Source: Bacteroidaceae bacterium (GTDB taxonomy: Bacteria; Bacteroidota; Bacteroidia; Bacteroidales; Bacteroidaceae). From it: DNA of 46,891 nucleotides. Below, piece after piece: positions 14,815 through 35,978 of the stretch (the stretch's first letter is position 1; each line of letters starts with the position of its first letter). The notes beneath the pieces were generated by a model that saw only the letters and a list, made by a program, of their open reading frames with translations, had not been told where the DNA came from and did not search any database. The stretch is taken from the NCBI GenBank assembly GCA_024688885.1, contig JAILDV010000052.1:1-46891 (forward strand). The letters run 5' to 3'. A program made the translations under genes and the position numbers.

Positions 14815-14913
14815 AATTGATAATTGATGATTGATAATTGACAATTTGGCTAATGTGATGAACGTAATGACAAAACAAGCCGAATGGCAATTATCAATTG
14901 TCAATTATCAATT
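14815..14913. repeat. Inverted heptamer element with conserved core (element C)
   Basis: Left arm 14815-14847 is AATTGAT/GATTGAT/AATTGAC heptamers, right arm 14889-14913 is the inverted version (AATTATC/AATTGTC). Between them is a 41-base core which reversed begins GCCATTCGGCTTGT and ends CATTAGCC, matching the core of 16012-16041. The arms could form a long hairpin between tpiA and the SPOR gene. Confidence 0.8.
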
Positions 14914-14935
14914 AACTAAATCCTTCGACTCAAAA

Positions 14936-15424
14936 ATGAAAAGACTTCTTTCAATCACGCTGACAATCCTTTTGTGTACTATCACCATGTCTGCGCAAGA
15001 CTTTACTGACCATATCCAGAAACCGGAAATGGGGCAAGGCACAGTGACAATACACCAAGACTCTCTCCTCGAAGACCTTGTGAACGGGAAGAAGCAGTTC
15101 GTCCCTGAGAAGAAGGTGGAGCAACGTGACCTTCCGGGTATTCCACGAGGCAAGAAAACCAAAGCTCGTGGTTACCGCATACAAGTGTATTGGGGAGGAA
15201 GCACACGTGCAGACCAAACCAATGCACAGCGTGCAGGCAACAGAGTGGCTACCGTCTTTCCAGAACTTCGTATCTATACCACGTTTGAATCACCTAACTG
15301 GCGATGCCGTGTGGGCGATTTTGTCACACGCAGGGAAGCGGATGACTATCTCAACAAACTGAAGAGTGCGCGGTTGGCACAAGGTGCCATCATTGTCAAG
15401 AGTGAAGTGTATGTCTATCAATAA
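14936..15424 (+). CDS. SPOR domain protein, secreted
   Basis: A 162-residue protein with signal peptide MKRLLSITLTILLCTITMSA and a C-terminal SPOR domain (residues about 75-160): GYRIQVYWGG, then VATVFPELRIYTTFESPNWRC and VGDFVTRREADDYLNKLK. SPOR domains bind denuded peptidoglycan glycans, so a periplasmic cell-wall role is likely. The ATG at 14936 is chosen because the longer frame from 14831 would begin in the heptamer element and bury the signal peptide. It precedes folE by 15 bases. Confidence 0.88.
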   Translation: MKRLLSITLTILLCTITMSAQDFTDHIQKPEMGQGTVTIHQDSLLEDLVNGKKQFVPEKKVEQRDLPGIPRGKKTKARGYRIQVYWGGSTRADQTNAQRAGNRVATVFPELRIYTTFESPNWRCRVGDFVTRREADDYLNKLKSARLAQGAIIVKSEVYVYQ

Positions 15425-15439
15425 TATACTAAGAACGAA

Positions 15440-16006
15440 ATGAATAGAGAAGAAAAGATAGAACTTCTGAAAGACACTTGTAAGAAAAGCCTTGAAGCAA
15501 TTGGTGAGGACCCTCAGCGTGAGGGGCTGCAACGCACTCCTGAACGTCTGGCACGCACTTTTCTGGAATTGACACGAGGTTATGCGATGGATCCTGTCGC
15601 TACACTCCAATCTGCCGTGTTCCATGAAGAATACGATCAGATGGTGGTGGTGAAGGACATTGAGTTCTACTCCCTTTGTGAACATCATATCTTGCCTTTC
15701 TTCGGAAAGGTGCATGTGGCATACATTCCCAATGGCAATATTGTAGGGCTCAGCAAGATTCCTCGTATGGTGGACATCTTCTCCCACCGCCTGCAAGTGC
15801 AGGAACACCTCACCAAACAGATTTGTGATTGTCTTCAGCAGGCACTTAATCCTCTCGGTGCTATTGTGGTGGTTGAGGCACAGCATATGTGCATCCAGAT
15901 GCGTGGCATTGAAAAGCAGGGTTCTGTCACTCAAACAATGTATTACACTGGTGTATTCGAGAATACCGAGAAACGCAAGGAATTCTTAAGTTTAATTAGG
16001 AATTAG
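15440..16006 (+). CDS. folE: GTP cyclohydrolase I
   Basis: FolE converts GTP to dihydroneopterin triphosphate, the first step of folate and pterin synthesis. The 188 residues carry zinc ligands C80 and H83 in [19 protein letters not shown] and C151 in [13 protein letters not shown], and the family block [20 protein letters not shown]. Length is normal for the short bacterial form. The last codons (LIRN) and stop TAG are written in AATTAGG heptamers of the following element. Confidence 0.97.
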
Positions 16007-16093
16007 GAGTTGGCTAACGCGATGCCTACATCCCGCATGGCAATTCCTAATTCCTCACTCCTAATTCCTAATTTCTCACTCCTCACTTCTCAC
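15994..16093. repeat. Inverted heptamer element with conserved core (element D)
   Basis: Left arm AATTAGG units begin inside folE at 15994. The core 16012-16041 reversed reads GCCATGCGGGATGTAGGCAT and ends GTTAGCC. The right arm 16042-16093 has seven heptamers (AATTCCT, CACTCCT, CACTTCT types) and stops five bases before the dnaG ATG. Confidence 0.85.
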
Positions 16094-16097
16094 CCTT

Positions 16098-18176
16098 ATG
16101 ATACCACAATCCACCATTGACAGAATCGTTGACGCCGCCAACATTGTTGATGTCGTTTCCGATTACGTCACGCTTCGCCGCGCTGGCGCAAGCTACAAGG
16201 GATTGTGTCCTTTCCACGACGATAAAACGCCCTCTTTTTCCGTCTCTCCTGCCCGTGGAGTGTGCAAGTGCTTCAGCTGCGGCAAGGGTGGCAACTCTGT
16301 CCATTTCATCATGGAGATGGAACAGATGAGCTATGTGGAGGCGCTGAAACATCTGGCAAAGAAATACGGCATTCCTGTTGAGGAAGAGGAGATGACTGAC
16401 GAGCAGCGTCAGAAGATGAATGAGCGTGAGAGTATGTTTGCTGTCAACGAATGGGCTGCCAAGTATTTCAGTCAAACCATGATGAATAATCAGGATGGTC
16501 GTGCCATCGGTTTGGCATATTTCCGTAGTCGTGGTTTTCGTGACGACATCATTGCCAAGTTCCGTCTCGGTTTCTGTTTGGACAGTTCTGATGCGATGCT
16601 GAAGGAGGCGAAGGCAAAGGGGTATAATGAAAAATATCTGGTGGATACAGGTTTGTGTGTGAAGCGTGATAATGGCACCCTCTATGACCGTTTCCGTGGA
16701 CGTGCGATGTTCCCGTGGGTGGCTGTCAACGGTAAGGTGGTCGCTTTCGGTGGTCGTGTGCTGGATGCCCGTACCAAAGGTGTGAATCAGAAGTACGTCA
16801 ATTCTCCTGATTCCATCATCTATCATAAAGCCAACGAACTCTATGGCATTTTCCAAGCTAAGAAGCAGATAGCTAAGGAGGATATGGTGTATATGGTGGA
16901 AGGTTACACGGATGTGCTTGCCATGCACCAATGTGGCATTGAGAATGTGGTGGCGAACTCTGGTACTGCTCTCAACGAGGCACAAATCCATCTCCTTCAC
17001 CGTTTCACCAACAACATCACCCTTCTCTACGATGGTGATGAAGCGGGCATTCATGCTGCCACACGCAGCACAGACATGCTCCTTGCTGAAGGTATGAATG
17101 TGAAGATACTGCTTCTGCCTGATGGGGATGACCCTGATAGTTTTTCCCGTAAGCATAATGCACAGGAGTTCAAGGAGTATGTGGCTGCCCATCAGACAGA
17201 CTTTATTCTCTTCAAGACCAATCTCCTGCTGAAAGATGCTGAAAGAGACCCCATCAAGCGTGCCCAACTCACCGAGGACATCGTGAAGAGCATCGCTGTC
17301 ATCCCTGATGAAATCATCCGCTCCACTTATGTGCATGAATGCGCAGAAATCCTCAATATGGATGAGGCCGTTCTGATGCGTGGCGCCAACAAGAATCGTG
17401 CAGCCATCCTTGAGAACTTGAAGAAGGAGGCACAGCGAGAACGCGAAAGACAAGCTCGTTTGTTGGAAGCAGGGAAGGAAAATGGGAACGAGGTTGATGA
17501 GTCCCGAGCGGGTGAGGTTAAGGATGTGAAAGACGCCGCAGATGATTCTTTTGCTTCCCTTACAAGCGAATCAGACACCACTCAACCACCTGCCGACATC
17601 CAGCCCATCGCGACCAAACAAAGTCTTTCTGAACAACGTTTTATCGGGCTTGAACGTATGATGATGACGCTCATCACACGCTATGGTGAGCAACTCATAG
17701 ATGGAGAGAACGGAGACGGCACACCCTCCAAGACCTCCTTGGCGGAGTATGTTCAGGGTGACCTCGAATATGATGGAATCACGCTTCGCTCACCCCTATA
17801 TGCCAAAATGCTCAGTCTTGTCTGTCAACATGCCCACGACGAAGGATTTGTTGCCTCCAAATTCCTCATCAACAATCAGGATGAGGACGTCAGTCGTGAA
17901 GCGGCAGACCTCATCAGTGACCGCTATCAGCTCAGCAAGGGCAACCAGATGGCGCAAACGGAAGAGGAACTCAAGGTGACTTATCTCTCACGACTTCTGC
18001 TTGACTACAAGAATGCCATCATCGAAGAAGAGATGAAAGAGTGCAATGCCGACCTCACACGTCCTGAAGTGAAAAGTGACATCGAACTGACACTTAAGAC
18101 GATGCGGCGAATCAAGGAACTCGGAGACATTCAACGACAACTTGCCAAAATGCTTGGAGACAGGGTGGTGAAGTAA
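16098..18176 (+). CDS. dnaG: DNA primase
   Basis: DnaG makes RNA primers at the replication fork. The zinc-binding CHC2 domain has C37, H40, C58 and C61 (CPFHDD ... CKCFSC). The catalytic core follows, with the TOPRIM domain opening at YMVEGYTDVLAMHQ (residues about 256-269) and the acidic YDGDEAG motif near 311-317. The C-terminal 200 residues, which would bind the replicative helicase, are diverged; a charged linker (about 440-510) separates them. Total length 692 is within the Bacteroidales range. The ATG sits directly after a heptamer array without Shine-Dalgarno. Confidence 0.97.
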   Translation: MIPQSTIDRIVDAANIVDVVSDYVTLRRAGASYKGLCPFHDDKTPSFSVSPARGVCKCFSCGKGGNSVHFIMEMEQMSYVEALKHLAKKYGIPVEEEEMTDEQRQKMNERESMFAVNEWAAKYFSQTMMNNQDGRAIGLAYFRSRGFRDDIIAKFRLGFCLDSSDAMLKEAKAKGYNEKYLVDTGLCVKRDNGTLYDRFRGRAMFPWVAVNGKVVAFGGRVLDARTKGVNQKYVNSPDSIIYHKANELYGIFQAKKQIAKEDMVYMVEGYTDVLAMHQCGIENVVANSGTALNEAQIHLLHRFTNNITLLYDGDEAGIHAATRSTDMLLAEGMNVKILLLPDGDDPDSFSRKHNAQEFKEYVAAHQTDFILFKTNLLLKDAERDPIKRAQLTEDIVKSIAVIPDEIIRSTYVHECAEILNMDEAVLMRGANKNRAAILENLKKEAQRERERQARLLEAGKENGNEVDESRAGEVKDVKDAADDSFASLTSESDTTQPPADIQPIATKQSLSEQRFIGLERMMMTLITRYGEQLIDGENGDGTPSKTSLAEYVQGDLEYDGITLRSPLYAKMLSLVCQHAHDEGFVASKFLINNQDEDVSREAADLISDRYQLSKGNQMAQTEEELKVTYLSRLLLDYKNAIIEEEMKECNADLTRPEVKSDIELTLKTMRRIKELGDIQRQLAKMLGDRVVK

Positions 18177-18222
18177 TTCGTTTTTCAACTTTCGGAAGTG
18201 ACGAAGTAATCGAAGCTACTCC

Positions 18223-18287
18223 GAATTAGGAATGAGGAGTTAGGAATTAGGAATGGAATCTGTCAACTGTCAATTGTCAACTGTCAA
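18223..18287. repeat. Heptamer arrays at the recG start
   Basis: GAATTAG/GAATGAG/GAGTTAG units (18223-18257) are followed by CTGTCAA/TTGTCAA units (18260-18287). The recG ATG (18253) falls inside one unit, and the second array is translated. Confidence 0.85.
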
Positions 18288-20484
18288 CTACACAAAGGCT
18301 ATTTTGAACATACTGACCCAAGACATCAAGTACCTGCAGGGAGTGGGACCCAATCGCGCCACCTTGCTTGCCAACGACCTCAACATCAAAACCGTTGGTG
18401 ACCTCCTTGCGTACTATCCTTATAAGTATGTTGACCGTAGCCGCATCTACAAAATCAATGAAATAGATGGCACGATGCCTTATGTGCAATTGTGTGGCCA
18501 GATTTTCTCGTTCGACAGCATAGGTGAGGGACGAAACAAACGACTGATTGCCCATTTTGCGGATGGTACAGGCACCATAGACTTGGTATGGTTCCAGGGA
18601 ATCAAGTATGTGGCGAAGAATTATGACTGTCGTAAACCGTACATCGTGTTCGGAAAACCGACAGTGTTTAACGGACATGTACAAATTGCGCACCCAGAGA
18701 TAGAACCGGCACCAGAGCATTTGAAAACACAGGCACGAACCACTGGAAATCTCTTTGAGGAGGGTGCATTGAATGCGAATCTGCAGGAAACGGAGATGGA
18801 AGCACAACCGACGATGTTCAAAGGGTTGTGTCCTTCTTATAACACCTCTGAGAAGATGAAAAGGAGTGGTCTCACTTCTGCCAGCATGGCGAAACTGACC
18901 GCCAACATGTTCAAGTTACTCAAAGAGTCACTTCCCGAAACACTCCCTTCCTATATTACTGCACAGCATCATCTGATGTCTTATGATGATGCCATCCGTA
19001 ACATCCATTATCCCAGTTCTCCAGAGGCGTTACGCCATGCACAGCTGCGCCTTAAGTTTGAGGAACTCTTTTATGTGCAACTGAACATCCTGCGCTATGT
19101 AAAGGATAGACAATTGCGTTATAAAGGCATTGTGATGGGGACAGTGGGTGAACAATTCAACAATTTTTTCTACCAGCATCTGCCTTTCCAACTTACAGAG
19201 GCACAGAAACGTGTCATTCGCGAAATCCGTGCCGACATGAAGTCTGGACGTCAGATGAACAGACTCCTTCAGGGTGATGTGGGTAGCGGAAAGACGCTTG
19301 TGGCATTGATGGTGGCACTCATTGCCATTGACAATGGCTGTCAAGCCTGTATTATGGCACCCACTGAGATTCTTGCAGAACAGCATCTTGATACCCTTCG
19401 CGAGTTTCTTGGTGACATGCCTGTTCGAGTGGAACTATTGACAGGCTCTGTGAAGGGCAAACGGCGTACTGAAGTGTTCCGGGATTTGGTGGCTGGAGAA
19501 ATAGATGTTCTTGTCGGTACACATGCCGTTATTGAAGATAACGTGCTTTTTCACAAACTCGGATTGGTTGTCATTGATGAACAACATCGCTTTGGAGTGG
19601 CACAGCGCGCTAAGCTGTGGATGAAGAACTCTGTTCCTCCTCACGTGCTTGTCATGACTGCAACGCCCATTCCTCGCACGCTTGCCATGACCCTCTATGG
19701 TGACCTTGATGTTTCCATTATTGACGAATTGCCTCCTGGCCGCAAACCTATTCGAACTGTCCATATGTTTGATGCCCACCGTCTGCGCATTTACGAACTG
19801 ATGAATCGGGAATTGGCGCTTGGTCGCCAGATATACATTGTTTATCCACTCATCAAAGAGACGGAGAAGATGGATCTCAAAGACCTTGAGGCTGGCTTTG
19901 AGGAAATCAGTCGTGCTTTCCCCAACTATCAGGTCAGCAAGGTGCATGGCAAAATGAAATCAGCTGACAAGGATGCGGAGATGCAGCGTTTTGCCAACCA
20001 TGAGACACATATTCTCGTATCGACTACCGTCATAGAGGTGGGTGTCAATGTACCCAATGCTTCTGTCATGATTATCGAAAACGCCGAGCGGTTTGGACTT
20101 AGCCAATTGCACCAGTTGCGTGGTAGAGTAGGGCGTGGTGCTGACCAAAGCTATTGTGTGTTGGTGACCAAACATGAGATAGGTGAGAGCACTCGCAAGC
20201 GCATTCAGGTGATGGTGGACACCACAGATGGTTTTGAGATTGCAGAGCAAGACTTGAAACTGAGGGGACCTGGCGACCTTGAGGGAACTCAGCAGTCGGG
20301 CATGGCATTTGACTTGAAAATTGCCAACCTTGCCCGTGATGGTCAGATTCTCACCATTGCACGAGATACAGCCCAATCCGTCATCACCTCAGACCCCGAA
20401 GAACGAAATCCGCAGAATGACATCCTTTGGCGAAGACTCCGAGAACTGAGGAAAAGCAATATTAATTGGGGCGCAATCAGCTAA
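18253..20484 (+). CDS. recG: ATP-dependent DNA helicase RecG
   Basis: RecG reverses stalled replication forks and branch-migrates Holliday junctions. The wedge/OB region opens DIKYLQGVGPNRATLLANDL (residues about 24-43) and includes CGQIFSFDSIGEGRNKRL. The helicase core has Walker A GDVGSGKT near 340-347, DEQHRFG near 444-450, MTATPIPRTLAMTLYGDLD and the RGRVGRG motif. Length is 743. The N-terminal dozen residues (ESVNCQLSTVNY) are encoded by heptamer repeats and are not part of the family; a TTG at 18304 (giving NILTQDIKYL) is an alternative start that would avoid them. Confidence 0.97.
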   Translation: MESVNCQLSTVNYTKAILNILTQDIKYLQGVGPNRATLLANDLNIKTVGDLLAYYPYKYVDRSRIYKINEIDGTMPYVQLCGQIFSFDSIGEGRNKRLIAHFADGTGTIDLVWFQGIKYVAKNYDCRKPYIVFGKPTVFNGHVQIAHPEIEPAPEHLKTQARTTGNLFEEGALNANLQETEMEAQPTMFKGLCPSYNTSEKMKRSGLTSASMAKLTANMFKLLKESLPETLPSYITAQHHLMSYDDAIRNIHYPSSPEALRHAQLRLKFEELFYVQLNILRYVKDRQLRYKGIVMGTVGEQFNNFFYQHLPFQLTEAQKRVIREIRADMKSGRQMNRLLQGDVGSGKTLVALMVALIAIDNGCQACIMAPTEILAEQHLDTLREFLGDMPVRVELLTGSVKGKRRTEVFRDLVAGEIDVLVGTHAVIEDNVLFHKLGLVVIDEQHRFGVAQRAKLWMKNSVPPHVLVMTATPIPRTLAMTLYGDLDVSIIDELPPGRKPIRTVHMFDAHRLRIYELMNRELALGRQIYIVYPLIKETEKMDLKDLEAGFEEISRAFPNYQVSKVHGKMKSADKDAEMQRFANHETHILVSTTVIEVGVNVPNASVMIIENAERFGLSQLHQLRGRVGRGADQSYCVLVTKHEIGESTRKRIQVMVDTTDGFEIAEQDLKLRGPGDLEGTQQSGMAFDLKIANLARDGQILTIARDTAQSVITSDPEERNPQNDILWRRLRELRKSNINWGAIS

Positions 20485-20500
20485 AAAACCTACAACTTAT

Positions 20501-22297
20501 ATGATAAACGGAAAGTTAAGACTCATTACTCTGTGGCTCACCTTTTTCTGTGCAATGGTCACTTTTAGCCAAGAAACACAAGAGGAAGCTGTGGAATCGC
20601 TCTCAGCTATTGATTCCTTGAAAGCGGTGAATGACTCGATTGTGGGCGAACTGCAGCATCAGTTGCAAGAACTGAAGTTGCAGAGCATTATGATGCAGGA
20701 GCAGTTGGAGATGACAGGAAAGAGCGCGAAAGAGGATTCATTAAGGCAAGCCGAACGCAAGGCGCGTGTGGATTCGTTGCGCAATGTGACTCCTGGCGCC
20801 CCCTTAGTGGTAGAAGGTGACACCTTGTTCGTTATCTATGCCCGGAAGGGTGGTATGTTGCCAGCAGCTCGTGTAAGTGCTGTGAGGAGTAAAATCTATG
20901 AGGTGGGCAAGCGACTGACCATGTTTGTTGATTCCATCTATGTGTTTGACAGCGAGATGTCTTCAGATGTGATGGTGGGCGAAGACGTCATTCTGAGTGT
21001 GACAGACCTTGATGCCTTATGGATGGGTGTGGAACGTGTGGACTTGGCTGAGAGTTATTGTGAGGTTATCAGCAAAAAGGTGAATCAGTTGCATGATGCC
21101 TATGGTTTGCAGCAGAAATTGCAGAGTTTGGGATGGGTGGCACTCATCATTGCCATTCAAGTGTTGCTTATCTGGGGCATTGTGTGGCTCTTCCGTCTTT
21201 GGAAGTTCAGTGTCACGCGCAAGTTGTTGCGACGCATCAAGTCGGTGATTATCAAGAATTACCCTTTGCTCGACACGCATCGCTTGGGTATTGCCATCAT
21301 CTTTGTCTTTAACTTGGTGCGTTTATTGATTATTCTATTGGTGCTGCTTGTGGGACTTGGTTTCATGTTCTCTTTCTTCCCTGAAACAAAGACACTCACA
21401 TATACGGCTCTGGCTTTCATCTGGAATCCTCTCAGCGACATCCTGAAGTCGGTGGTGGCATATCTTCCTAAACTCTTTAAAATTATTGTCATCATAATCT
21501 GTTTCCACTATCTGCTGAAACTCATCCGTTACTTTACGAATGAGATTTCCTGTGGACGATTGAAGATCAATGGTTTTTATGCAGACTGGGCTATGCCTAC
21601 ATATACGATTCTGCGCATTCTGCTCTACTCGTTCATGTTGGTGATGATATGGCCGTTGCTTCCTAATTCTGATTCAGAAGTCTTCCAAGGTGTGTCGGTC
21701 TTTATCGGTGTGGTTGTTTCGTTGGGCTCCACTTCGTTGGTGGGCAATGTGATGTCAGGATTGGTGATGACCTATATGCGTCCCTTCCGCATTGGAGATT
21801 TCATTCGCTTTGGTGATACGGAAGGGGAGGTCATTGAGAAGAGCATGCTGGTCACCCGTATCCGCACACGTAAGAATGATGTTGTGACCATCCCTAATTC
21901 CAACCTGATGAGTTCGCAGACATCGAACTACACATTCTCTGCTCAGCGGTACGGTATCATTGTGCACACGAAAATCACGATTGGTTACGATGAATCTTGG
22001 AAGAAGATTGAGGCACTCCTCGTGCAAGCGGCAGAAAATACGGACGGTATCAAACATCACCCCAAACCTTTTGTTCGTATCACGGCTCTTGACGATTTCT
22101 ATGTGGAGTATGAAATTAATGGCATAACAGATCGTGCAAAGACCCTCTCCACTGTCTATTCATCGCTTCATCAACATATTCTTGACACCATGCATGGGGC
22201 AGGTGTGGAGATTATGTCACCACATATTGAAGCACGACGTGATGATTTGCCACTACAGATACCACACCAAGATGAAGATTCTATAAAGCATAGTTGA
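20501..22297 (+). CDS. Large MscS-family mechanosensitive channel
   Basis: A 598-residue inner-membrane channel protein. A signal-like hydrophobic start (LRLITLWLTFFCAMVTFSQ) is followed by a periplasmic coiled-coil stretch (QLQELKLQSIMMQEQLEM, residues about 49-66), then about five membrane helices between 205 and 415. The MscS core has VVVSLGSTSLVGNVMSGLVM (pore-lining TM3 region, about 406-425) and FRIGDFIRFGDTEGEVIEKS, then the cytoplasmic beta domain with TIPNSNLMSSQ. This architecture fits the larger MscS/MscK-like homologues that release solutes on osmotic downshock. It starts 17 bases after recG and its end overlaps the DUF3943 gene on the other strand by 17 bp. Confidence 0.92.
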   Translation: MINGKLRLITLWLTFFCAMVTFSQETQEEAVESLSAIDSLKAVNDSIVGELQHQLQELKLQSIMMQEQLEMTGKSAKEDSLRQAERKARVDSLRNVTPGAPLVVEGDTLFVIYARKGGMLPAARVSAVRSKIYEVGKRLTMFVDSIYVFDSEMSSDVMVGEDVILSVTDLDALWMGVERVDLAESYCEVISKKVNQLHDAYGLQQKLQSLGWVALIIAIQVLLIWGIVWLFRLWKFSVTRKLLRRIKSVIIKNYPLLDTHRLGIAIIFVFNLVRLLIILLVLLVGLGFMFSFFPETKTLTYTALAFIWNPLSDILKSVVAYLPKLFKIIVIIICFHYLLKLIRYFTNEISCGRLKINGFYADWAMPTYTILRILLYSFMLVMIWPLLPNSDSEVFQGVSVFIGVVVSLGSTSLVGNVMSGLVMTYMRPFRIGDFIRFGDTEGEVIEKSMLVTRIRTRKNDVVTIPNSNLMSSQTSNYTFSAQRYGIIVHTKITIGYDESWKKIEALLVQAAENTDGIKHHPKPFVRITALDDFYVEYEINGITDRAKTLSTVYSSLHQHILDTMHGAGVEIMSPHIEARRDDLPLQIPHQDEDSIKHS

Positions 22298-23885
22298 GCC
22301 CCAACTTCCATTCGTGACTCTTTCCTGTAATGGAGGGATAGTAGCGGTAGTTGCCGTGGCGTAGGTAAAATTCATGCTGGAAATTCAGGTGAAGATTGCG
22401 ATAGAGGTGAACGTTGAGAAAAAGGCGATTTTGGAAAATGCTTTGTTCTCCCTTGTCACCCCATGCATTGATGCCCTCTAACAATGCCTCTTGATGAAGG
22501 TCTTCATCTTCTGTGTAGCGTTCCAATTCGTTGGGGTGATACCCTTTTAGAATGAAAAGCCGCATAAAATAGAAATCATCACCCACAGAGAGATGACGGT
22601 TCAAGTCGTATTGGAAACGGTAGCGGATTGAAGCTCCCGTACCGAAATTGTAGCGGCGGAAAGGATAATAGTCGGCTGTGCTTCCTCCCAGCGGTACGGT
22701 TGAGAACATGAAGTCGTGGGTAAGTGTACTGGTGCGTCCTTGCCGTTCAAAATAGAGTCCGATGCCAAAACTGGCTGCTTCGGAGATGATGGCGAGGTTG
22801 CCGGGTTCTTCGTCGCCTTCTTTACTGTAGTGGTCGATGTATTTGACGTTTTGGTAGAAGCCGAGATCGAGTTTCCACTGATGAGGCATTTGGTACTGAC
22901 GGGAGCCGATGCGTCCACGAATGTCAAGTTCGCCCACGGTGGGTTGGTCGGGTGCAAAATTGACGAGGGAGTAGAGTTCGAAGTAATCGTAGGCTCGGGG
23001 ACTTTTCCCCTCCTCCAGATGGTTGAAGTGGTTGCCGTAGATGAAGCGGAAATCGAGGTAGGGGATGGCTTCATAATAACGTGCGCCTGTCCGTGGGTGG
23101 ATGGGGGCACGGTCATAGATGTAGCGTCCGCCTGTACCAATTTGGAAGGTGTAAGGCATGGGCTCCTCTTTCTTCCCTGCATTGGAATGGTTGACGCGAA
23201 ACATCTCTCCCGACATGATGCGGTGGAGACCTCGAACGGGGTTGAGAAGGGAACCGATGATTTCGCGGACAACACGTTGGGGACCTTGCTTGGTGTTGTC
23301 GAAGAATATGTCGGACATGCGGTGGGTGACTTCACCGATAGCAGCACCACCAACACCCGTGGAAAGAAGATCATTGATGGCTGGACGGTTGGTCTCGCAT
23401 AAGAGTTCCCACGTGACGGAACCTGCCACGGGATAGAGGAGGGAGACACCATAAGAGAGTCCATGCTCACGGGCTGCATTGTAGAACATGCTGCCATGAT
23501 AGGGATGAGAAAATTGGTTGCCTGAGAAACTGTCATTGTCCCACACCCATCCTCCTGAGAGGTTCCTATGCAAGGTGGCGCTCGTGACACGTGCCCAATC
23601 GCGGTCAGTCACGAAGTGGTTCCAACTGAACACCAAAGCATTGATACTCAAGTCTTCGATGAGCGCCTGAAGTCCGGGGTGTTTGGGCATCCCATTGGCT
23701 TTCTTTCCAAAGAAATGCAAGGAACAAGTGTAGGGGGTTAGTGTGTCGGGACATTGCAGATGGGTGCGGATGCCCGTGATGGAGTCGTGCCAGATGGAGT
23801 CAGGGTGTGCAACCTCTGTGGCATGCAACGGACTGATGCAGCACAAGATGTAAAGAAGAACGAGGAGGTTGCGACTGAAATTCAT
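22281..23885 (-). CDS. DUF3943 domain outer-membrane-associated protein
   Basis: A 534-residue exported protein. The ATG at 23885 is chosen: it gives signal peptide NFSRNLLVLLYILCCISPLHA and lies behind a TATCTTTGC promoter; the longer frame to 24119 crosses into the radA gene. The DUF3943 region covers about residues 75-190 with NALVFSWNHFV, SGGWVWDNDSFSGNQFSHPY and GSMFYNAAREHGLSY. The C-terminal half is rich in alternating aromatic strands (KLDLGFYQNV, YNFGTGASIRYRFQYDL) ending in WKLGLNYAL, which suggests a beta-barrel. Function is unknown. Convergent with mscS, divergent from radA. Confidence 0.82.
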   Translation of the reverse strand: MNFSRNLLVLLYILCCISPLHATEVAHPDSIWHDSITGIRTHLQCPDTLTPYTCSLHFFGKKANGMPKHPGLQALIEDLSINALVFSWNHFVTDRDWARVTSATLHRNLSGGWVWDNDSFSGNQFSHPYHGSMFYNAAREHGLSYGVSLLYPVAGSVTWELLCETNRPAINDLLSTGVGGAAIGEVTHRMSDIFFDNTKQGPQRVVREIIGSLLNPVRGLHRIMSGEMFRVNHSNAGKKEEPMPYTFQIGTGGRYIYDRAPIHPRTGARYYEAIPYLDFRFIYGNHFNHLEEGKSPRAYDYFELYSLVNFAPDQPTVGELDIRGRIGSRQYQMPHQWKLDLGFYQNVKYIDHYSKEGDEEPGNLAIISEAASFGIGLYFERQGRTSTLTHDFMFSTVPLGGSTADYYPFRRYNFGTGASIRYRFQYDLNRHLSVGDDFYFMRLFILKGYHPNELERYTEDEDLHQEALLEGINAWGDKGEQSIFQNRLFLNVHLYRNLHLNFQHEFYLRHGNYRYYPSITGKSHEWKLGLNYAL

Positions 23886-23918
23886 CTGGGAGTAAAAAAC
23901 GTTTGTATGAAAAACTGT

Positions 23919-23999
23919 GCAAAGATACTCTTTTTTTATTGATAATTGATGATTGGGGTTGATAATTGCCCGTTTTATCAATATTTTCTTGTAACTTTG
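23919..23999. promoter_or_regulatory. Divergent promoter region, DUF3943 and radA
   Basis: On the minus strand TATCTTTG (with following C) is at 23927-23919, 34 bases before the DUF3943 ATG. On the plus strand TAACTTTG is at 23992-23999, 19 bases before the radA ATG. Neither has a clear TTTG at -33. A short GATAATT/GATGATT heptamer stretch (23941-23967) lies between them. Confidence 0.65.
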
Positions 24000-24017
24000 T
24001 GGACAAAATGAAAGCAT

Positions 24018-25418: not shown

Positions 25419-25428
25419 TTTAACAATC

Positions 25429-25494
25429 TTTGTGCACCTTGTAAATAGCTGATTTATATCTGTTTGTACATTTTGTTTGAAAAGTTGTGCACAA
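25429..25494. promoter_or_regulatory. TTGTGCAC-type palindrome before the tetR promoter (candidate operator)
   Basis: TTGTGCACAA at 25485-25494 is a perfect 10-bp palindrome ending five bases before the -33 box. TTTGTGCAC at 25429-25437 repeats the core upstream. This placement fits autoregulation by the TetR-family product encoded next. Confidence 0.4.
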
Positions 25495-25499
25495 AATCC

Positions 25500-25530
25500 T
25501 TTGTCCTTTCAGTTTTTTTCTGTACCTTTG
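25500..25530 (+). promoter_or_regulatory. Bacteroidetes-type promoter for tetR-fabG
   Basis: TTTG at 25500-25503, 19 bases, TACCTTTG at 25523-25530. The ATG follows 57 bases later. Confidence 0.8.
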
Positions 25531-25587
25531 CACTCAAATCCAGTTCATGTGCTGGGCACAACCCAAAAATAAAAACACTCAAAGATT

Positions 25588-26187: not shown

Positions 26188-26213
26188 TTCATTATTTATA
26201 AATAAAAAATAAT

Positions 26214-26972
26214 ATGGGACTTTTAAGTGGTAAGACAGCCCTGGTAACAGGTGCTGCACGCGGCATCGGTAAAGCTGTCGCTATGAAGTTTGCTCAGGAA
26301 GGTGCGAACATCGCATTTACTGATTTGGTGTTGAACGATGATATGGCTGCAGGTCTCGAAGCTACCCGCAAGGAGATTGAGGCTTTGGGCGTAACATGTC
26401 GTGCTTATGCTGGCAATGCAGCAGACTTTGCTGAAACGGAGGCTGTGGTGAAGAAGATTCACGAGGATTTTGGTTCTATCGACGTATTGGTCAACAACGC
26501 TGGTATCACCAAGGATGGCTTGATGCTCCGTATGACTGAGCAGCAGTGGGATGCTGTTTTGAATGTGAACTTGAAGTCAGCTTTCAACTTCATCCATGCA
26601 TGTGCTCCTATCATGCTTCGTCAGCGTGGTGGTTCTATCATCAACATGTCTTCAGTGGTAGGTGTTCACGGAAATGCAGGTCAGTGCAACTATTCAGCGT
26701 CTAAGGCTGGTATGATTGGTTTGGCTAAGTCTATCGCTCAGGAACTTGGTCCTAAGGGTGTACGTGCCAATGCTGTTGCTCCAGGTTTCATCGAGACAGC
26801 TATGACAGCCCAGTTGCCAGAAGAGATCCGTGCTGACTGGATGAAGAAGATTCCACTTCGTCGTGGTGGTCAGGTAGAGGACATCGCTAATGTGTGTCTT
26901 TTCCTCGCTTCTGACATGTCCAGCTACGTGTCTGGTCAGGTCATCCAGATTGACGGTGGCATGAACATGTAA
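26214..26972 (+). CDS. fabG: 3-oxoacyl-ACP reductase
   Basis: FabG reduces 3-oxoacyl-ACP with NADPH in fatty-acid elongation. It is a 252-residue short-chain dehydrogenase: cofactor loop TGAARGIGKAVA (about 12-23), NNAG in the fourth strand, catalytic S147, Y160 and K164 (NYSASK), and the C-terminal SGQVIQIDGGMNM. The start ATGGGACTTTTAAG gives MGLLSGKTALVTG. Co-directional with the TetR regulator; its TAA shares a base with the next gene's ATG (TAATG). Confidence 0.96.
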   Translation: MGLLSGKTALVTGAARGIGKAVAMKFAQEGANIAFTDLVLNDDMAAGLEATRKEIEALGVTCRAYAGNAADFAETEAVVKKIHEDFGSIDVLVNNAGITKDGLMLRMTEQQWDAVLNVNLKSAFNFIHACAPIMLRQRGGSIINMSSVVGVHGNAGQCNYSASKAGMIGLAKSIAQELGPKGVRANAVAPGFIETAMTAQLPEEIRADWMKKIPLRRGGQVEDIANVCLFLASDMSSYVSGQVIQIDGGMNM

Positions 26973-27640
26973 TGGAAGTAATTTACGAAGATAATCACAT
27001 CATCATTGTTTCGAAGACGACAGGGGAAATTGTACAAGGTGACAAGACTGGTGACAAGCCTCTGAGCGAAACAGTGAAGCAATACATCAAGGAAGCGTAC
27101 GCCAAACCGGGCGACGTCTTCCTTGGTGTTGTTCATCGTCTTGATCGTCCTGTGTTCGGACTTGTCTTGTTTGCGCGTACTTCTAAGGCATTGGCACGTC
27201 TCAATGCCATGTTTGCAAACGGCGAAGTGAAGAAAAAGTATTGGGCGATTGTGAAAGATGCTCCTGCAGAGTCGGAAGGTACACTCACTCATTGGCTTGT
27301 GCGTAACGAGAAACAGAATAAGTCTTATGCCTACGACCACGAAGTGCCTCGCAGCAAGAAAGCCATTCTTCACTATCAAGTCATTGGTAAGTCAGACAAC
27401 TATTATCTTCTGGAGGTGGATTTGAAGACGGGGCGCCATCACCAAATACGTTGTCAGTTGGCAAAGATAGGTTGCCCCATCAAAGGTGACCTCAAATATG
27501 GTGCCAAACGCTCAAACCCTGATGGCAGCATCTCCTTGCTGAGCCGCTCTATGCAGTTCATTCATCCTGTCAGCAAAAAAGAAATTGCCGTCGAAGCACC
27601 ACTGCCCGACGACAATCTATGGAAATCCTTCTCTGTATAG
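26972..27640 (+). CDS. RluA-family pseudouridine synthase
   Basis: A 222-residue enzyme converting uridine to pseudouridine in RNA. VIYEDNHIIIVSKTTGEIVQG opens the catalytic domain, and the catalytic aspartate lies in VHRLDRPVFGLVLFART near residues 55-71. LKTGRHHQIRCQLA is the second family motif. There is no S4 domain, so it is a short RluA/TruC-like form; the RNA target cannot be told from sequence. It overlaps the fabG stop by one base (TAATG), so the two are coupled. Convergent with the cyclophilin gene. Confidence 0.92.
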   Translation: MEVIYEDNHIIIVSKTTGEIVQGDKTGDKPLSETVKQYIKEAYAKPGDVFLGVVHRLDRPVFGLVLFARTSKALARLNAMFANGEVKKKYWAIVKDAPAESEGTLTHWLVRNEKQNKSYAYDHEVPRSKKAILHYQVIGKSDNYYLLEVDLKTGRHHQIRCQLAKIGCPIKGDLKYGAKRSNPDGSISLLSRSMQFIHPVSKKEIAVEAPLPDDNLWKSFSV

Positions 27641-27673
27641 CTCAGAACTTAGAGTTTAGAGAATCTCATTTTT

Positions 27674-28498
27674 TCATTCTTTTACGTATGCCTTGACGAT
27701 GCGTACCTCCTTTAAAGGTACCTCTTGTGCATTCGTCTTGATTTTCTGGATGGTTTCCACCACCTTCATTCCTTCCACCACTTCACCAAAGACGGTGTAT
27801 TCATTGTCCAACCAAGGAGCACCTCCATGAATGCCGTAACTGCGGCGCAGGTCGTGTGGATACGTGATAGGTGGATTCTCAGAAACCTCCCATTTCGCTT
27901 CGTCAAGCAGCTTTTCCAGCAGATTGCTCACCCCTTCGCGGTCACGTGCTTGACGCAGCGCCTCCAGCTTCTCCTTATTTGCCAGTTGCTTTTTCATATA
28001 GAGAATCTCTGTGTCGCGCTGCACCCTTGCTTGTTCGAATGCATCCATATCTGCATCCTGACACGTTCTGCCCGTCACGATGTAGAACTGGAACTTGTCA
28101 CTTGCTCTATCAGGATTCTCCTCGTCACCATCCCTCGCGGCAGCCAGAACACCACGCTTGTTGAAATGCTTTGGCCACACAATCTCCGCAGGAATTCGCT
28201 CCGTGATGGTGTCACCTTCAGGAGTCAGTTTCACCTTATATCCTTCTGGACGTGTCTTTGGGTCACCCGTCTGAATCATGAAGTCACGCACCACACGATG
28301 AAATGTCACGCCTGTGTACATCCCGTCCTTCACATTCTTTACAAAGTTGTCCCGATGTCCGGGTGTGTCATCGTAGAGTTTCACACGAATCTCACCTGCT
28401 GTAGTTTCCAACACCACCTCCGTTTCTTGCCCTCCTTCGGTGCATCCCATGCACACCATACAGCAAGTCCACAGCAATATGGCAATAATATTCTTCAT
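27674..28498 (-). CDS. Cyclophilin-type peptidyl-prolyl isomerase, lipoprotein
   Basis: A 274-residue envelope cyclophilin. The start at 28498 gives a lipoprotein signal (NIIAILLWTCCMVCMGC, cysteine about 20). The PPIase domain has EIRVKLYDDTPGHRDNFVKNV, GVTFHRVVRDFMIQTGD and DKFQFYIVTG, and ends GEVVEGMKVVETIQKIKTN. A charged helical insertion of about 60 residues (YMKKQLANKEKLEALRQARD and following) interrupts the fold, a form common in Bacteroidales. The longer frame to 28612 is rejected because it runs through a heptamer array (FNFQFSILNY). It helps fold exported proteins. Confidence 0.92.
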   Translation of the reverse strand: MKNIIAILLWTCCMVCMGCTEGGQETEVVLETTAGEIRVKLYDDTPGHRDNFVKNVKDGMYTGVTFHRVVRDFMIQTGDPKTRPEGYKVKLTPEGDTITERIPAEIVWPKHFNKRGVLAAARDGDEENPDRASDKFQFYIVTGRTCQDADMDAFEQARVQRDTEILYMKKQLANKEKLEALRQARDREGVSNLLEKLLDEAKWEVSENPPITYPHDLRRSYGIHGGAPWLDNEYTVFGEVVEGMKVVETIQKIKTNAQEVPLKEVRIVKAYVKE

Positions 28499-28529
28499 TT
28501 CTATTGTAAGGTTTTTTTGTTTCTGCAGA

Positions 28530-28537
28530 CAAAGGTA
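28530..28537 (-). promoter_or_regulatory. -7 box TACCTTTG of the cyclophilin gene
   Basis: TACCTTTG read on the minus strand, 31 bases before the ATG. The heptamer array lies where the -33 box should be, and no TTTG is seen. Confidence 0.6.
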
Positions 28538-28545
28538 CGAAAAAT

Positions 28546-28688
28546 AATTGAGAATTGAGAATTGAAAATTGAAAATTAGCCTTGCGGGGTGTTTCTGGCA
28601 GCCTTTCCGCATGTCAAACAGTGTACTCTAAGTTAAAAAACGAAGAAAAAAGAAAAATTTTCAATTTTCAATTATCAATTATCAATTA
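28546..28688. repeat. Inverted heptamer element with conserved core (element E)
   Basis: Left arm 28546-28578 has AATTGAG and AATTGAA units, right arm 28656-28688 has AATTTTC and AATTATC units. The inner 18 bases of the arms (28560-28577 and 28656-28673) are perfect reverse complements. The core begins GCCTTGCGGGGTGT at 28579. It lies between the divergent cyclophilin gene and tRNA-Pro. Confidence 0.85.
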
Positions 28689-28695
28689 AAAGTGT

Positions 28696-28703
28696 TACCT
28701 TTG
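28696..28703 (+). promoter_or_regulatory. -7 box TACCTTTG of the tRNA-Pro promoter
   Basis: TACCTTTG ends 17 bases before the tRNA 5' end. The upstream half is repeat arm. Confidence 0.65.
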
Positions 28704-28720
28704 CAGTCGATTTGAAAAAT

Positions 28721-28794
28721 CGGGAAGTAGCGCAGTTGGTTAGCGTACACGTCTGGGGGGCGTGTGGTCGCCAGTTCGAGTCTGGTCTTCCCGA
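28721..28794 (+). tRNA. tRNA-Pro (anticodon GGG)
   Basis: 74 bases fold into a full cloverleaf. Acceptor stem CGGGAAG/CTTCCCG, D-stem GCGC/GCGT, anticodon stem CACGT/GCGTG with loop CTGGGGG (anticodon GGG at 28755-28757), T-stem GCCAG/CTGGT with loop TTCGAGT, discriminator A. It reads CCC (and CCU). No CCA is encoded, as is common in this phylum. Confidence 0.95.
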
Positions 28795-28805
28795 CAAGAA
28801 AAGGG

Positions 28806-28839
28806 CAAGAGTGGTGTTTTAGGATACCACTCTTGTTTT
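28806..28839 (+). terminator. Rho-independent terminator after tRNA-Pro
   Basis: Perfect 10-bp stem CAAGAGTGGT / ACCACTCTTG (28806-28815, 28826-28835), 10-base loop, then TTTT. Confidence 0.85.
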
Positions 28840-28871
28840 AGTTATTTAAGTTTCGCAAGCTCAACTTCTTT

Positions 28872-28993
28872 GGAGTTAAGGAGTTAAAGGAGTTATCGCT
28901 ACGCTTAGGAGTTAAGCCATTACCTGTTTCAGGGCGTTTCCCACTAGCCTGAGTATCGGCTTAACTACTGACTACTTAACTACTTCAGAAAGT
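28872..28993. repeat. Dispersed 125-bp element, copy 1
   Basis: GGAGTTAAGGAGTTAAAGGAG at one end, GCCATTACC and AGCCTGAGTATCGGC in the middle, TTAACTACTTCAGAAAG at the other end. The same sequence occurs inverted at 40925-41052; only a middle stretch of about 20 bases and a 7-base unit differ. It precedes the radical SAM gene by 25 bases. Confidence 0.9.
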
Positions 28994-29018
28994 CGAGTTA
29001 GTTATATACGATAAGGAG

Positions 29019-30320
29019 ATGCTGACAGAAAAGACCTTGGAAAAATTGCGCATATTGGCTGAATCGGCGAAATACGATGTGTCGTGTTCGTCGAGTGGCA
29101 CCGTGCGTGGTGGTAAGCAAGGTATGGTGGGAAACACGGTGGGTGGTGTCGGCATCTGTCACTCTTTTGCAGACGACGGACGTTGTATCTCGCTGCTGAA
29201 AGTGATGTTGACCAATTATTGTATGTATGATTGTGCCTATTGCATCAATAGGCGAAGTAACGACATCAAGCGTGCCACCTTGGCAGTGCATGAATTGGAA
29301 GAGATTGTGATGGAGTTCTATCGGAGAAATTACATCGAGGGGCTCTTCCTGAGCAGCGGGGTGGTGCGGAATCCCGACTACACGATGGAGCGCTTGGTGG
29401 CTATTGCCAAGGACTTGCGCACGGTGCATCACTTCAATGGCTACATCCACCTGAAGAGCATTCCAGGGGCAAGTCGTGAGTTGATGAGTGAGGCGGGGCG
29501 CTATGCCGACCGCATGAGCGTGAACATTGAGATTCCGAACGAGACCTCGCTCAAGATGTTGGCACCAGAGAAAGACCATCAGAGCGTCTTCACGCCCATG
29601 AAGTTTATCCAACAAGGAGTGTTGGAGAATAAGGAAGACAGGAAACACTTGCGTCATGTCCCCCGTTTCGTGCCAGCGGGACAGAGCACCCAGATGATTG
29701 TGGGGGCAACGAATGAGACTGACCGTGACATCCTGCACATGTCATCAGCCATGTATGGACAACCCACCATGCGACGTGTCTATTATTCGGGTTATGTGAG
29801 TGTGAACACCTACGACCCTCGCTTGCCCGTCTTGAAACAACCTCCTTTGGTACGTGAGAACCGACTCTATCAGGCAGATTGGCTCATGCGTTTCTATCAG
29901 TTCAAGGTGGAGGAGATAGTGGATGAAGCCAATGCCAACCTCGACTTGGAAGTTGACCCTAAACTGGCGTGGGCATTGAGGCATCCGGAGCAATTCCCTG
30001 TAGATATCAACCGCGATGACTACGAAAAGATTCTCCGTGTGCCAGGCATCGGCGTGAAATCTGCCATGCTCATTGTCAATTCCCGCCGCTTCAATCGCAT
30101 CACCTCCTATCACCTGAAAAAGATGGGGGTGGTGATGAAGAAAGCCAAGTATTTCATCACGTGTCACGAACTCACCGATGGCTATGCCAATCCCATCGTT
30201 GGCATTAACGAACTTCATCCAGAACGCCTCAAGCCCCTTCTCATCTCGAAAGCCCAACAAAAGAAAGCGGCAGCAGAACTGCAACTGACGCTTGACTTTG
30301 AAGAGGAGAAGAAAGGATAA
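29019..30320 (+). CDS. Putative DNA modification/repair radical SAM protein (TIGR03916 type)
   Basis: A 433-residue radical SAM enzyme. The cluster motif CMYDCAYC holds C68, C72 and C75, which would bind the 4Fe-4S cluster. The conserved start KLRILAESAKYDVSCSSSGT and the stretch ISLLKVMLTNYCMYDC are family hallmarks. A helix-hairpin-helix-like segment lies near residues 335-355 (YEKILRVPGIGVKSAMLIVN), suggesting DNA binding. The family is always paired with the next gene's family, and a role in DNA repair is predicted rather than shown. The ATG directly follows AAGGAG, too close to be a normal Shine-Dalgarno. Confidence 0.9.
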   Translation: MLTEKTLEKLRILAESAKYDVSCSSSGTVRGGKQGMVGNTVGGVGICHSFADDGRCISLLKVMLTNYCMYDCAYCINRRSNDIKRATLAVHELEEIVMEFYRRNYIEGLFLSSGVVRNPDYTMERLVAIAKDLRTVHHFNGYIHLKSIPGASRELMSEAGRYADRMSVNIEIPNETSLKMLAPEKDHQSVFTPMKFIQQGVLENKEDRKHLRHVPRFVPAGQSTQMIVGATNETDRDILHMSSAMYGQPTMRRVYYSGYVSVNTYDPRLPVLKQPPLVRENRLYQADWLMRFYQFKVEEIVDEANANLDLEVDPKLAWALRHPEQFPVDINRDDYEKILRVPGIGVKSAMLIVNSRRFNRITSYHLKKMGVVMKKAKYFITCHELTDGYANPIVGINELHPERLKPLLISKAQQKKAAAELQLTLDFEEEKKG

Positions 30321-31712: not shown

Positions 31713-31780
31713 TATTTGTTTATGTAGTTCATGTAATGGACAAGAGAGAGAAGTGCCGAATGATGACTTAAAAAAGCGCA

Positions 31781-34314: not shown

Positions 34315-34335
34315 TATGCTGTTAAATAAGAATAC

Positions 34336-34364: not shown

Positions 34365-34367
34365 CTG

Positions 34368-34440
34368 TGATCCGCTTGGGGCTCGAACCCAAGACCCCAA
34401 CATTAAAAGTGTTGTGCTCTACCGACTGAGCTAGCGGATC
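34368..34440 (-). tRNA. tRNA-Lys (anticodon TTT)
   Basis: 73 bases fold fully. Acceptor GATCCGC/GCGGATC, D-stem GCTC/GAGC, anticodon stem CAACA/TGTTG with loop CTTTTAA, T-stem TTGGG/CCCAA, discriminator A. No encoded CCA. Confidence 0.95.
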
Positions 34441-34450
34441 TACCTAAAAA

Positions 34451-34530
34451 GCTTACGACAAAACGAAATGAATTACTGTTGTGTTGCAAAAAGAATTGAC
34501 AGGGTTTTGTGCCTGTCTTTTGTCGTAAGC
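34451..34530 (-). other. Nested hairpin leader upstream of tRNA-Lys
   Basis: Perfect 13-bp inverted repeat (34451-34463 and 34518-34530, GCTTACGACAAAA and its reverse complement) encloses 54 bases containing a second 6-bp hairpin GACAGG/CCTGTC (34498-34503, 34512-34517). It lies between the tRNA promoter and the tRNA, so the whole transcript leader could fold into one structure. Confidence 0.75.
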
Positions 34531-34535
34531 GGGTG

Positions 34536-34566
34536 CAAAGGTAGTGCATTTTTTAGACACTACCAA
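34536..34566 (-). promoter_or_regulatory. Bacteroidetes-type promoter for tRNA-Lys
   Basis: On the minus strand TTG at 34566-34564, 20 bases, TACCTTTG at 34543-34536. Confidence 0.7.
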
Positions 34567-34597
34567 TTATTTTTCGAGTTTTTTTTATTTTTAGGGG

Positions 34598-35818
34598 TTA
34601 ATTGGTGACGCGATGCCGTTTCTTGAGCCAAAAGGCGAAAGCGGCAATGACGATGTAGCAGAGCATCGGTACGATGAAGGCAGGACGCATGTTGCCGGTT
34701 GTGTCTGCGATGTATCCCATCAAGACAGGAGCAACCGCACCACCGACGATACTCATGATAAGGTAAGAGGAAGCCTGTTTGGTGTGGATGCCTACACCGC
34801 GGATGGCAAGGGCAAAGATGGTGGGGAACATGATGCTCTCGCAGAGGTAGCAGAGGAAGAGGGCGCCGATGCCGATGGTGCCTGAAGCAAAGAGCAGCAG
34901 CACCATGGAGAGTGTGGCACCTATCGCGCAGATGCCCAATAAGAATTCAGGGCGAAGTTTGCTCATTGCCCAACTTCCACCCATGCGACCGAGCATGAAG
35001 AGTCCCATGCAGACAAAACCGAGCAGCAGGGATGCCGTAGCAGGGGTGATGCCTGCATTCTCTGTGGCAAAGTTGATGAAGAAACTGTTAAGTCCCGTCT
35101 GTGCTGCCACATACAGGAAGAGGGAGATAAGTCCGAAAATGAAATGCTTGTGTTTCCACAGGGAAATGCTGACTTCCGGTGTGCTTCCCCCGTCTGTCGC
35201 CGTTTCTGCTATTTCAGGTAGCTTGATGCGAGAAAAGACAAAGGCGATGATGAGAACGATGACACCGATGATGGCATAAGGAATGGATAGGGTGGCAGAT
35301 GAGTTGGTTTCATCACCATCAAAGAGCAGCATACCTCCGATGAGGGGACCGACAATCCATCCAAGTCCGTTGAGTGACTGAGAGAGATTGATGCGTTGTT
35401 CCGCCGATTCGGGGTCACCCAGCACAGTCACATAGGGGTTTGCTGCCGTTTCGAGGCAGGTTAGTCCGCAACCGATGATGAAGAGGCACAAGAGGAAAAA
35501 CTCGAAGGTGAGAATCTGTGCACCCGGTATGAAGAGCAGAGCACCGATGCCGTAAAGCAGCAATCCTGTGATGACACCTGCACGATAGCCATATCGGGAG
35601 ATGATTTTCCCAGCAGGTATTGCCATGAGGAAATAGCCGCCATACACGACAGCCTGTATGAGTGCTGACCCCGTCTTGCTGATGGACAGGGAATCTTGGA
35701 AATGCTTATTGAGCACATCGAGAATACTATGCGCAAAACCCCACAGAAAGAAAAGTGAGGTGATGAGAATGAAGGGAAGAAGAAATGATTTCCCGTCTTT
35801 GGTTTTAATAAGAGACAT
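34598..35818 (-). CDS. FucP-type sugar:H+ symporter, MFS
   Basis: A 406-residue MFS transporter with twelve predicted helices, of the fucose/glucose/galactose permease group. PFILITSLFFLWGFAHSILDVL opens the protein and LNKHFQDSL, YGGYFLMAIPAGKIISRYGY and CLETAANPYVTVLGDPESA are group signatures. The fkp gene just upstream on the same strand makes L-fucose a likely substrate, but glucose or galactose permeases of this group look alike. The gene is separated from fkp by a 190-base repeat region. Stop TAA, then tRNA-Lys. Confidence 0.9.
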   Translation of the reverse strand: MSLIKTKDGKSFLLPFILITSLFFLWGFAHSILDVLNKHFQDSLSISKTGSALIQAVVYGGYFLMAIPAGKIISRYGYRAGVITGLLLYGIGALLFIPGAQILTFEFFLLCLFIIGCGLTCLETAANPYVTVLGDPESAEQRINLSQSLNGLGWIVGPLIGGMLLFDGDETNSSATLSIPYAIIGVIVLIIAFVFSRIKLPEIAETATDGGSTPEVSISLWKHKHFIFGLISLFLYVAAQTGLNSFFINFATENAGITPATASLLLGFVCMGLFMLGRMGGSWAMSKLRPEFLLGICAIGATLSMVLLLFASGTIGIGALFLCYLCESIMFPTIFALAIRGVGIHTKQASSYLIMSIVGGAVAPVLMGYIADTTGNMRPAFIVPMLCYIVIAAFAFWLKKRHRVTN

Positions 35819-35825
35819 ATTGGAT

Positions 35826-35978
35826 GAGAGTTGAGAGTTTAGAGTTTAGGGTTTAGAGTTTAGAGTTTGAAAGTTAAAAACTAAAAGTTAGGAGTTAGGA
35901 GTTAGGAGTTGCCATGCGGCGTGTTGGAATCCTGTTTACTATGGATACTTTCACTTTTCGTTTTTAGTTTTTAACTTT
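35826..35978. repeat. Composite heptamer element with conserved core (element F)
   Basis: GAGTTTA/GGGTTTA units (about 35826-35868), AGTTAGG units (35886-35910), then core GCCATGCGGCGTGTTGGAAT beginning at 35911. AAAGTTAAAAACTAAAA at 35870-35886 is the exact reverse complement of 35962-35978, giving inverted arms around the core. It fills the gap between fkp and the sugar transporter. Confidence 0.85.

Follow-up and report, generated by a model that had tools for sequence, protein, structure and literature searches.

In Xanthomonas, arrays of the heptamer GGGAATC occur as convergent inverted pairs, 70 and 75 of them per genome (PMC4692102), and direct repeats of the heptamer TAACTGA are found in Beggiatoaceae, Cyanobacteria and five Bacteroidetes (PMC4679880). 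Tandem heptamers also build the elements described here, which were noticed in a 46,891-nucleotide stretch of a Bacteroidaceae genome (assembly GCA_024688885.1, contig JAILDV010000052.1; 'the window'). Four elements of the window carry a core with a common start, surrounded by arms made of 7-bp units. We believe, with a probability of about 0.58, that they are non-autonomous, palindromic mobile elements resembling miniature inverted-repeat transposable elements (MITEs), whose arms and core spread together. Below, G000 is the window's own genome, the other G numbers (G0xx, G1xx, G2xx) are compared genomes and L numbers are individual loci; gene names such as tpi, SPOR, folE and dnaG are readings of translations and not the result of family searches.

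The core, GCCWTKCGGNNTGT, has 49 exact matches in G000 (25 forward, 24 reverse), compared with two (1 + 1) for a reversed control. In the window alone, with up to two mismatches allowed, 19 matches were found against a mean of 12.0, and 4 of 100 shuffles reached 19. The pattern is barely above chance within the window and far above chance genome-wide. After removal of duplicates and of loci too close to the end of a stretch, 129 core loci from six genomes were retained: 48 of 49 in G000, 37 of 37 in G029, 19 of 43 in G007, 8 of 19 in G011, 2 of 15 in G015 and 15 of 21 in G014. The arms mirrored each other better than in all 30 shuffles at 76 of the 129 (17/48, 20/37, 16/19, 8/8, 2/2 and 13/15, in the same order), where each shuffle preserved the base composition of the left arm and not its period. 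Ten of the 129 loci lie inside a called gene. For G000 the number is 6 of 48, obtained with a crude gene caller and possibly due to chance. The proposal of a dispersed family in the initial annotation is borne out by the counts, with a core common to the copies and arms that are in many cases mirrored; the core was also found beside heptamer arrays elsewhere in the genome, an outcome in favor of the annotation. In being short, non-coding and dispersed in many copies the elements agree with MITEs. Constant terminal inverted repeats were not found, as arm sequence varies among copies and only the inner core is shared. With short tandemly repeated repetitive (STRR) sequences, or heptanucleotide simple sequence repeats, they share the presence of tandem heptamers in intergenic DNA.

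The initial annotation described four elements with their cores, all of which were recovered in place, and Tandem Repeats Finder independently detected period-7 arrays at all four. Positions below refer to the plus strand unless stated otherwise. Element 1 lies directly 3′ of tpi and consists of a left arm of AATTGAT-type heptamers (14815..14846), a 41-nt core that forms the loop (14848..14888, minus strand) and reads GCCATTCGGCTTGT...TTAGCC, and a right arm (14889..14913) that mirrors the left one. Its counterpart in G029 has one extra heptamer, in the right arm only. In element 2 the left arm of AATTAGG heptamers (15994..16011) overlaps the folE stop codon, the 30-nt core occupies 16012..16041 on the minus strand, and the right arm of heptamers (16042..16093) reaches the dnaG start. 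The far end TTAGCC is indeed common to these first two cores. Element 3 has a left arm of AATTGAG/AATTGAA heptamers (28546..28577), a long loop (28579..28655) opening with the core GCCTTGCGGGGTGT (28579-28592, plus strand) and a mirrored right arm (28656..28688) just upstream of a tRNA gene at 28721-28794. Element 4 is less regular. An outer GTTTAGA array (35827..35868) without a mirrored partner is followed by the left half of a 17-bp mirrored stem (35870..35886), an unpaired inner AGTTAGG array (35886..35910), the core GCCATGCGGCGTGT (35911..35924, plus strand) and the right half of the stem (35962..35978). The proposed mirroring of the arms is limited to 17 bp in element 4. At the site of element 4 (35826) G029 has retained the left arrays, while the core and the downstream part have been replaced. 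As RNA, all four elements fold better than shuffled sequences, with z-scores of −9.45, −6.54, −4.35 and −3.92 for elements 1 to 4; the value for element 4 refers to 35868-35978 of the minus strand only, and there the real sequence was equaled by 1 of 200 shuffles, compared with none for elements 1 to 3.

The invariance of unit length and core suggested by the initial annotation was too strong a statement. The same core is found at the inner end of other palindromes, with GGGGGAG-type, ACGGATT or ACGAATT arms, and in a further group CACTTTT arms enclose an inner stem that is fixed. Two forms are frequent: a core of ~30 nt ending in GCATCGCGTTAGCC, and a core followed by AAGGTAACTT, which matches AAGTTACCTT in front of it. 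Some relatives have inverted copies of the core at both ends of the loop (L046). Heptamers are nevertheless the prevailing unit of tandem DNA: in six G000 contigs period 7 accounts for 2402 non-coding bases and period 8 for 153, with at most 62 for any other period from 4 to 12. The order of variant units tends to be the same in both arms. Among 43 elements with gap-free arms of at least three units, 1183 identities were counted, compared with 918 expected after permutation of the units; this excess is due in part to the CACTTTT elements, whose inner stem is fixed, and to non-heptamer arms, and it is missing from several heptamer elements.

Heptamer arrays without a core are also present in the window, at 916-965, 9176-9277, 12264-12296, 18223-18289, 24438-24480, 40080-40111 and 40826-40880, the last within the 3′ end of an open reading frame. 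The gap that holds the array at 9176-9277 is 70 bp shorter in G029. At the 12264 site G029 (C44:12544-12903, a joined stretch) has a module GGCTTCGCCGAAGATGCTCACGCTCGGC...TTGACC inside the heptamer array. A related family, in which the arms consist of octamers (AGTTAAGT / GGAGTTAA) and the core is a different one (GCCGATACTCAGGCT...GGTAATGGC), has copies in the window at 28872-28985 and 40932-41052. G029 lacks the copy at 40932 but has an octamer-armed copy at another place, where a direct repeat of 23 nt, with one mismatch, flanks it. By eye, octamer arms also surround heptamer elements, that is, the two are nested. Minisatellites of 23 bp (unit GGTATCTTACCCATACAGGTGTT; units around TCCCTTTCGTCATCTCCGCT) are found in or near an open frame at 42076-42486 and differ in length in G029.

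We also compared the number of copies among genomes. A slightly narrower pattern than that used above, GCCATKCGGNNTGT, had 414 matches against 13 for the control in 45 genomes of the genus, most of which are incomplete assemblies. Copies per genome ranged from 0 to 48, with at least one match in 39 of the 45 and at least 10 in 15. Among 299 genomes of the family that are at least 85% complete, high copy number is confined to the window's own genus, with the sole exception of G287 from another genus (16 matches versus 1 in the control), where the loci have, by eye, the same kind of design with other arms. Next outside the genus are G107 (7 versus 1) and G113 (5 versus 1). A scan of named genomes with a longer core returned nine stretches, all from uncultured Prevotellaceae, Bacteroidaceae or Bacteroidales. 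Isolate names among the nine include RUG204, RUG242, RUG14395, UBA4359, goat reticulum and a roe deer rumen sample; the named relatives are largely of rumen origin. The long core had no match in viral contigs.

Turnover of the elements is fast. In G029, a sister ~95% identical to G000, 11 of the 48 G000 cores have an orthologous core as read by eye from the comparison, where one locus (L023) looks like coding sequence and absent contigs could hide some orthologues. Over ~200 kb of shared order the two genomes differ by 55 insertions or deletions (indels) of at least 35 bp, three of which exceed 700 bp; in 32 there are heptamers, octamers, a strong stem or an 8-nt motif resembling the core, and in 20 there is none of these. 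The pairs G023/G032, G041/G007 and G041/G043 differ by 5, 6 and 4 indels, with no clean core event among those listed. One difference between the sisters is suited to a reading as insertion. At a stop/start border that is free of elements in G000, the window contains AATGGAA (26971..26977, plus strand); in G029 the same border (26972) holds arms and core bounded on both sides by this 7-bp sequence. Either G029 gained the element by insertion or G000 lost it precisely. Spread of arms together with the core is shown by G014, in which 14 of 16 listed loci share AGTTAAA arms adjacent to the core, at about a dozen places; most of these cores measure 26-34 nt, and the sequence GCCATGCGGAGTGT accounts for 18 of the 21 core matches.

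Several observations weigh against such mobility. In G000, 31 of the 48 copies have no mirrored arms; by eye, these are mostly in mosaics or beside a single array. At border 26972 both G023 and G032 carry a core element with different arms, and G000 may consequently have undergone a precise deletion. Sixty-two elements show no excess of direct repeats beyond their mirrored arms: flanking repeats of 7 bp were found in two, compared with 1.0 expected, and both represent the same locus in G000 and G029. Target duplication is therefore not proven to be a general feature. Two G014 contigs share the spacing of their cores and the contamination value of G014 is 7, so that some copies may have been counted twice and the G014 total may be too high. 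At C67:20940 both sisters have the core, but one flank consists of a GGGGGAG module in G000 and of heptamers in the G029 orthologue, a difference that simple insertion does not explain. Finally, no transposase was noticed by eye in the core-bearing loci with listed open reading frames; a genome-wide search by element ends was not part of this survey. A DUF559 nuclease adjoining the core (L010, L048) was considered as a candidate. It is the sole match in the window's own genome and, by eye, lies near an argininosuccinate synthase-like gene in both species, and we take its position to be ordinary linkage.

If the elements are mobile as we believe, a typical copy has two inverted arms (often tandem heptamers) on either side of a loop that opens with the core, and arms and core would be inserted together, mostly between genes, with the core presumably recognized by a protein. 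The inserted copy would then evolve locally. Heptamers would be gained or lost by slippage, as suggested by the one-unit difference in element 1, and the arms would diverge by the point mutations that are observed. Occasionally the loop would flip, probably through a switch of the DNA polymerase between the arms as templates; one flip was observed. Copies would soon disappear and give way to others, in part through nesting with palindromes of other families, and at some gene ends, as the case of tpi suggests, the hairpin has probably been co-opted for formation or stability of the mRNA 3′ end.

In order to follow the fate of loops and arms, orthologous hairpins of G000 and G029 were compared. 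The flip concerns element 2 in the folE-dnaG gap: G029 and G030 have the 30-nt core of G000 as its exact reverse complement, within similar arms. Of 55 loops, 48 have the same orientation in both sisters, this one is inverted and six are unclear. In the same gap G029 (L076) and G030 (L087) share an identical run of ~80 nt, while neighboring 150-bp bins differ by 13-23%, which suggests a recent exchange of this intergenic tract between species. In 58 orthologous hairpins 777 pairs were unchanged, 35 had changed on one side, none on both sides, and seven fell in gaps; stems were required to pair in G000, and hairpins differing by more than 40 bp in aligned stretches were omitted. Since only ~0.4 double changes would be expected under independent mutation, the absence of concerted changes says little about rare events. 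Differences are fewer in stems than in loops (35 of 812 pairs versus 111 of 2938 bases), but pairs broken in G000 are not counted and we claim no constraint on stems. Fast maintenance of the mirror symmetry is not supported, and the symmetry is not visibly renewed between the sister species. More likely, it arose when each copy was born or inserted. Loop inversion and the shared order of units point to a process at the DNA level, acting at birth or occasionally later. The initial annotation was largely right in what it observed, which was partly confirmed. Its interpretation, that a process maintains the structure, is partly supported: loop inversion and shared unit order agree with it, and the 35 one-sided changes with none concerted do not.

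We consider it unlikely that the elements are in essence RNA structures, namely hairpins at gene 3′ ends that act as terminators or protect the mRNA end, with the core as an RNA or protein-binding loop and with pairing of the RNA under selection. Such a role would fit the gap between tpi and SPOR. Thirty of the 42 genomes with FolE were retrieved, all 30 with the order tpi-SPOR-folE-dnaG, and in 29 of the 30 (L075-L104) this gap has a stem better than all 60 shuffles. The stem starts 9-29 nt after the last sense codon of tpi, and by eye its sequences are largely unrelated between clades. Among gaps of 50-300 bp, strong stems are most frequent between convergent genes (23 of 43 gaps), compared with 37 of 196 for co-directional and 13 of 48 for divergent genes (p 9e-6 and 0.018), counts made with crude gene calls and with orthologous contigs counted apart. 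Copies are present in divergent gaps too, however, and the core is oriented at random with respect to co-directional genes (36 the same, 40 opposite, p 0.73). Mismatches of the A-C and G-T kinds on the sense strand number 46/17, 22/12 and 9/13 in three sets, of which the first two overlap, with no consistent excess of G-U. The A-C excess of 46 versus 17 (p 0.0003) is inflated by related copies and was rejected as a signal. The random orientation and the lack of a G-U signature argue for an element at the DNA level and, together with the one-sided stem changes, leave selection on RNA unsupported. By eye, the stems are rich in A+T, and downstream of elements 1 and 2 the plus strand has no T run. 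A terminator scan of 14000-29500 in the window flagged none of elements 1 to 3, but it allowed only loops of 3-8 and could not have flagged them. At the gathering score Rfam found two tRNAs in the window and nothing for the elements, and on eight further loci it returned only tRNAs and sub-threshold miRNA matches. Because of the tpi hairpin in 29 of 30 genomes and the prevalence of strong stems in convergent gaps, hairpins at gene ends are probably useful, and the elements are one source of them. The folE-dnaG gap offers a different picture, with only 2-22 bp and no element in 18 of the 30 genomes.

Rather improbable, in our opinion, is a birth of the palindromes in place, without any transposition, by slippage that grows heptamer arrays and fold-back template switching that copies an arm around a pre-existing core. 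The dominance of period 7 in non-coding tandem DNA and the unit order shared by both arms are in line with it, and loop inversion with homogenization of arms is a known signature of template switching (PMC8604942). By eye, the same sites carry differently armed core elements across clades and, at C67:20940, once between sisters. Birth in place is harder to reconcile with the roughly a dozen G014 sites that have similar arms next to the core, and without spreading a conserved core of 14 nt would not be expected at dozens of unrelated sites. Concerted arm change was absent from the 58 orthologous hairpins, a comparison of low power.

We regard as still more doubtful that the core alone moves or persists and rebuilds its arms, with fold-back synthesis primed next to the core mirroring the flank, in many cases a heptamer array grown by slippage, so that one loop is armed again and again. 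This would predict, as observed by eye, that core elements at one and the same gene border have different arms depending on the clade, as well as the core of C67:20940 that is kept between sisters with different flanks and the occurrence of quite different kinds of arms on one core. Mobilization of the elements by RAYT (Y1) transposases, as repeats of the REP/REPIN type, is very improbable: the elements are, like REP/REPIN, palindromic, intergenic and mosaic-forming, and a RAYT-like gene of 388 aa is present in the own genome (L066, G000:C49:58129-59292) with matches in 37 of 45 genus genomes, but its Pfam match is below the cut-off, it is not flanked by the repeat, the nearest core is 3.9 kb away, RAYT match counts (fragments included) do not correlate with core counts in the 45 genomes (Spearman 0.14, p 0.36), and G014 has 21 cores with no RAYT match while G004 has eight RAYT matches and no core. 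A weaker Y1 match (L067) was discarded since by eye its frame looks like a cytidylate kinase.

The elements show a genus in which palindromes, with a common loop and with arms that are exchangeable and often built of heptamers, remodel the intergenic DNA between species ~95% alike. They offer a natural test bed for the birth, flipping and decay of palindromes and for the question of why heptamers are favored. The tpi locus is a case in which a hairpin at a gene end persists as a structure while its sequence is replaced.

How the elements relate to described systems is judged here from the portions of the cited reports available to us. The Xanthomonas arrays (PMC4692102) are likewise tandem, heptameric, mostly intergenic and variable in length between species. 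They have one G-rich consensus heptamer, and no conserved core is described in that portion, whereas many heptamers and a core are found here. The TAACTGA repeats (PMC4679880) are also intergenic tandem heptamers, Bacteroidetes included, but consist of one heptamer in direct orientation (with a single inverted case), again with no core described there. Since heptamer arrays are in print for Xanthomonas and Bacteroidetes, the arms are not without precedent. The proposal of the initial annotation that the design is undescribed in Bacteroidales stands in so far as no description of core plus arms in Bacteroidales or Prevotella was found among the top-ranked results in the open-licence literature. 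REP/REPIN sequences (PMC3733652) are dispersed palindromes too, with grouped copies that are often near gene ends. Their stems measure 5-13 bp, they carry a GTAG or CGTC tag and the GTAG types are linked to RAYT; the elements here have longer, variable stems and no RAYT link was seen. Template switching at inverted repeats (PMC8604942, PMC8794818) predicts homogenization of arms and inversion of the loop (spacer), but it is a mutation mechanism and not a dispersed family. BrickBuilt and other MITEs of Porphyromonas gingivalis (PMC4596501) are, like our elements, intergenic, non-autonomous, from Bacteroidales and with doubtful target duplications, and BrickBuilt has tandem repeats inside an inverted-repeat element; its units, however, are 23-bp direct repeats, its terminal repeats are IS5-like and it has no heptamer arms. 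MITE-like palindromes as such are therefore known, and what sets ours apart is the combination of exchangeable, often heptameric arms with a shared loop.

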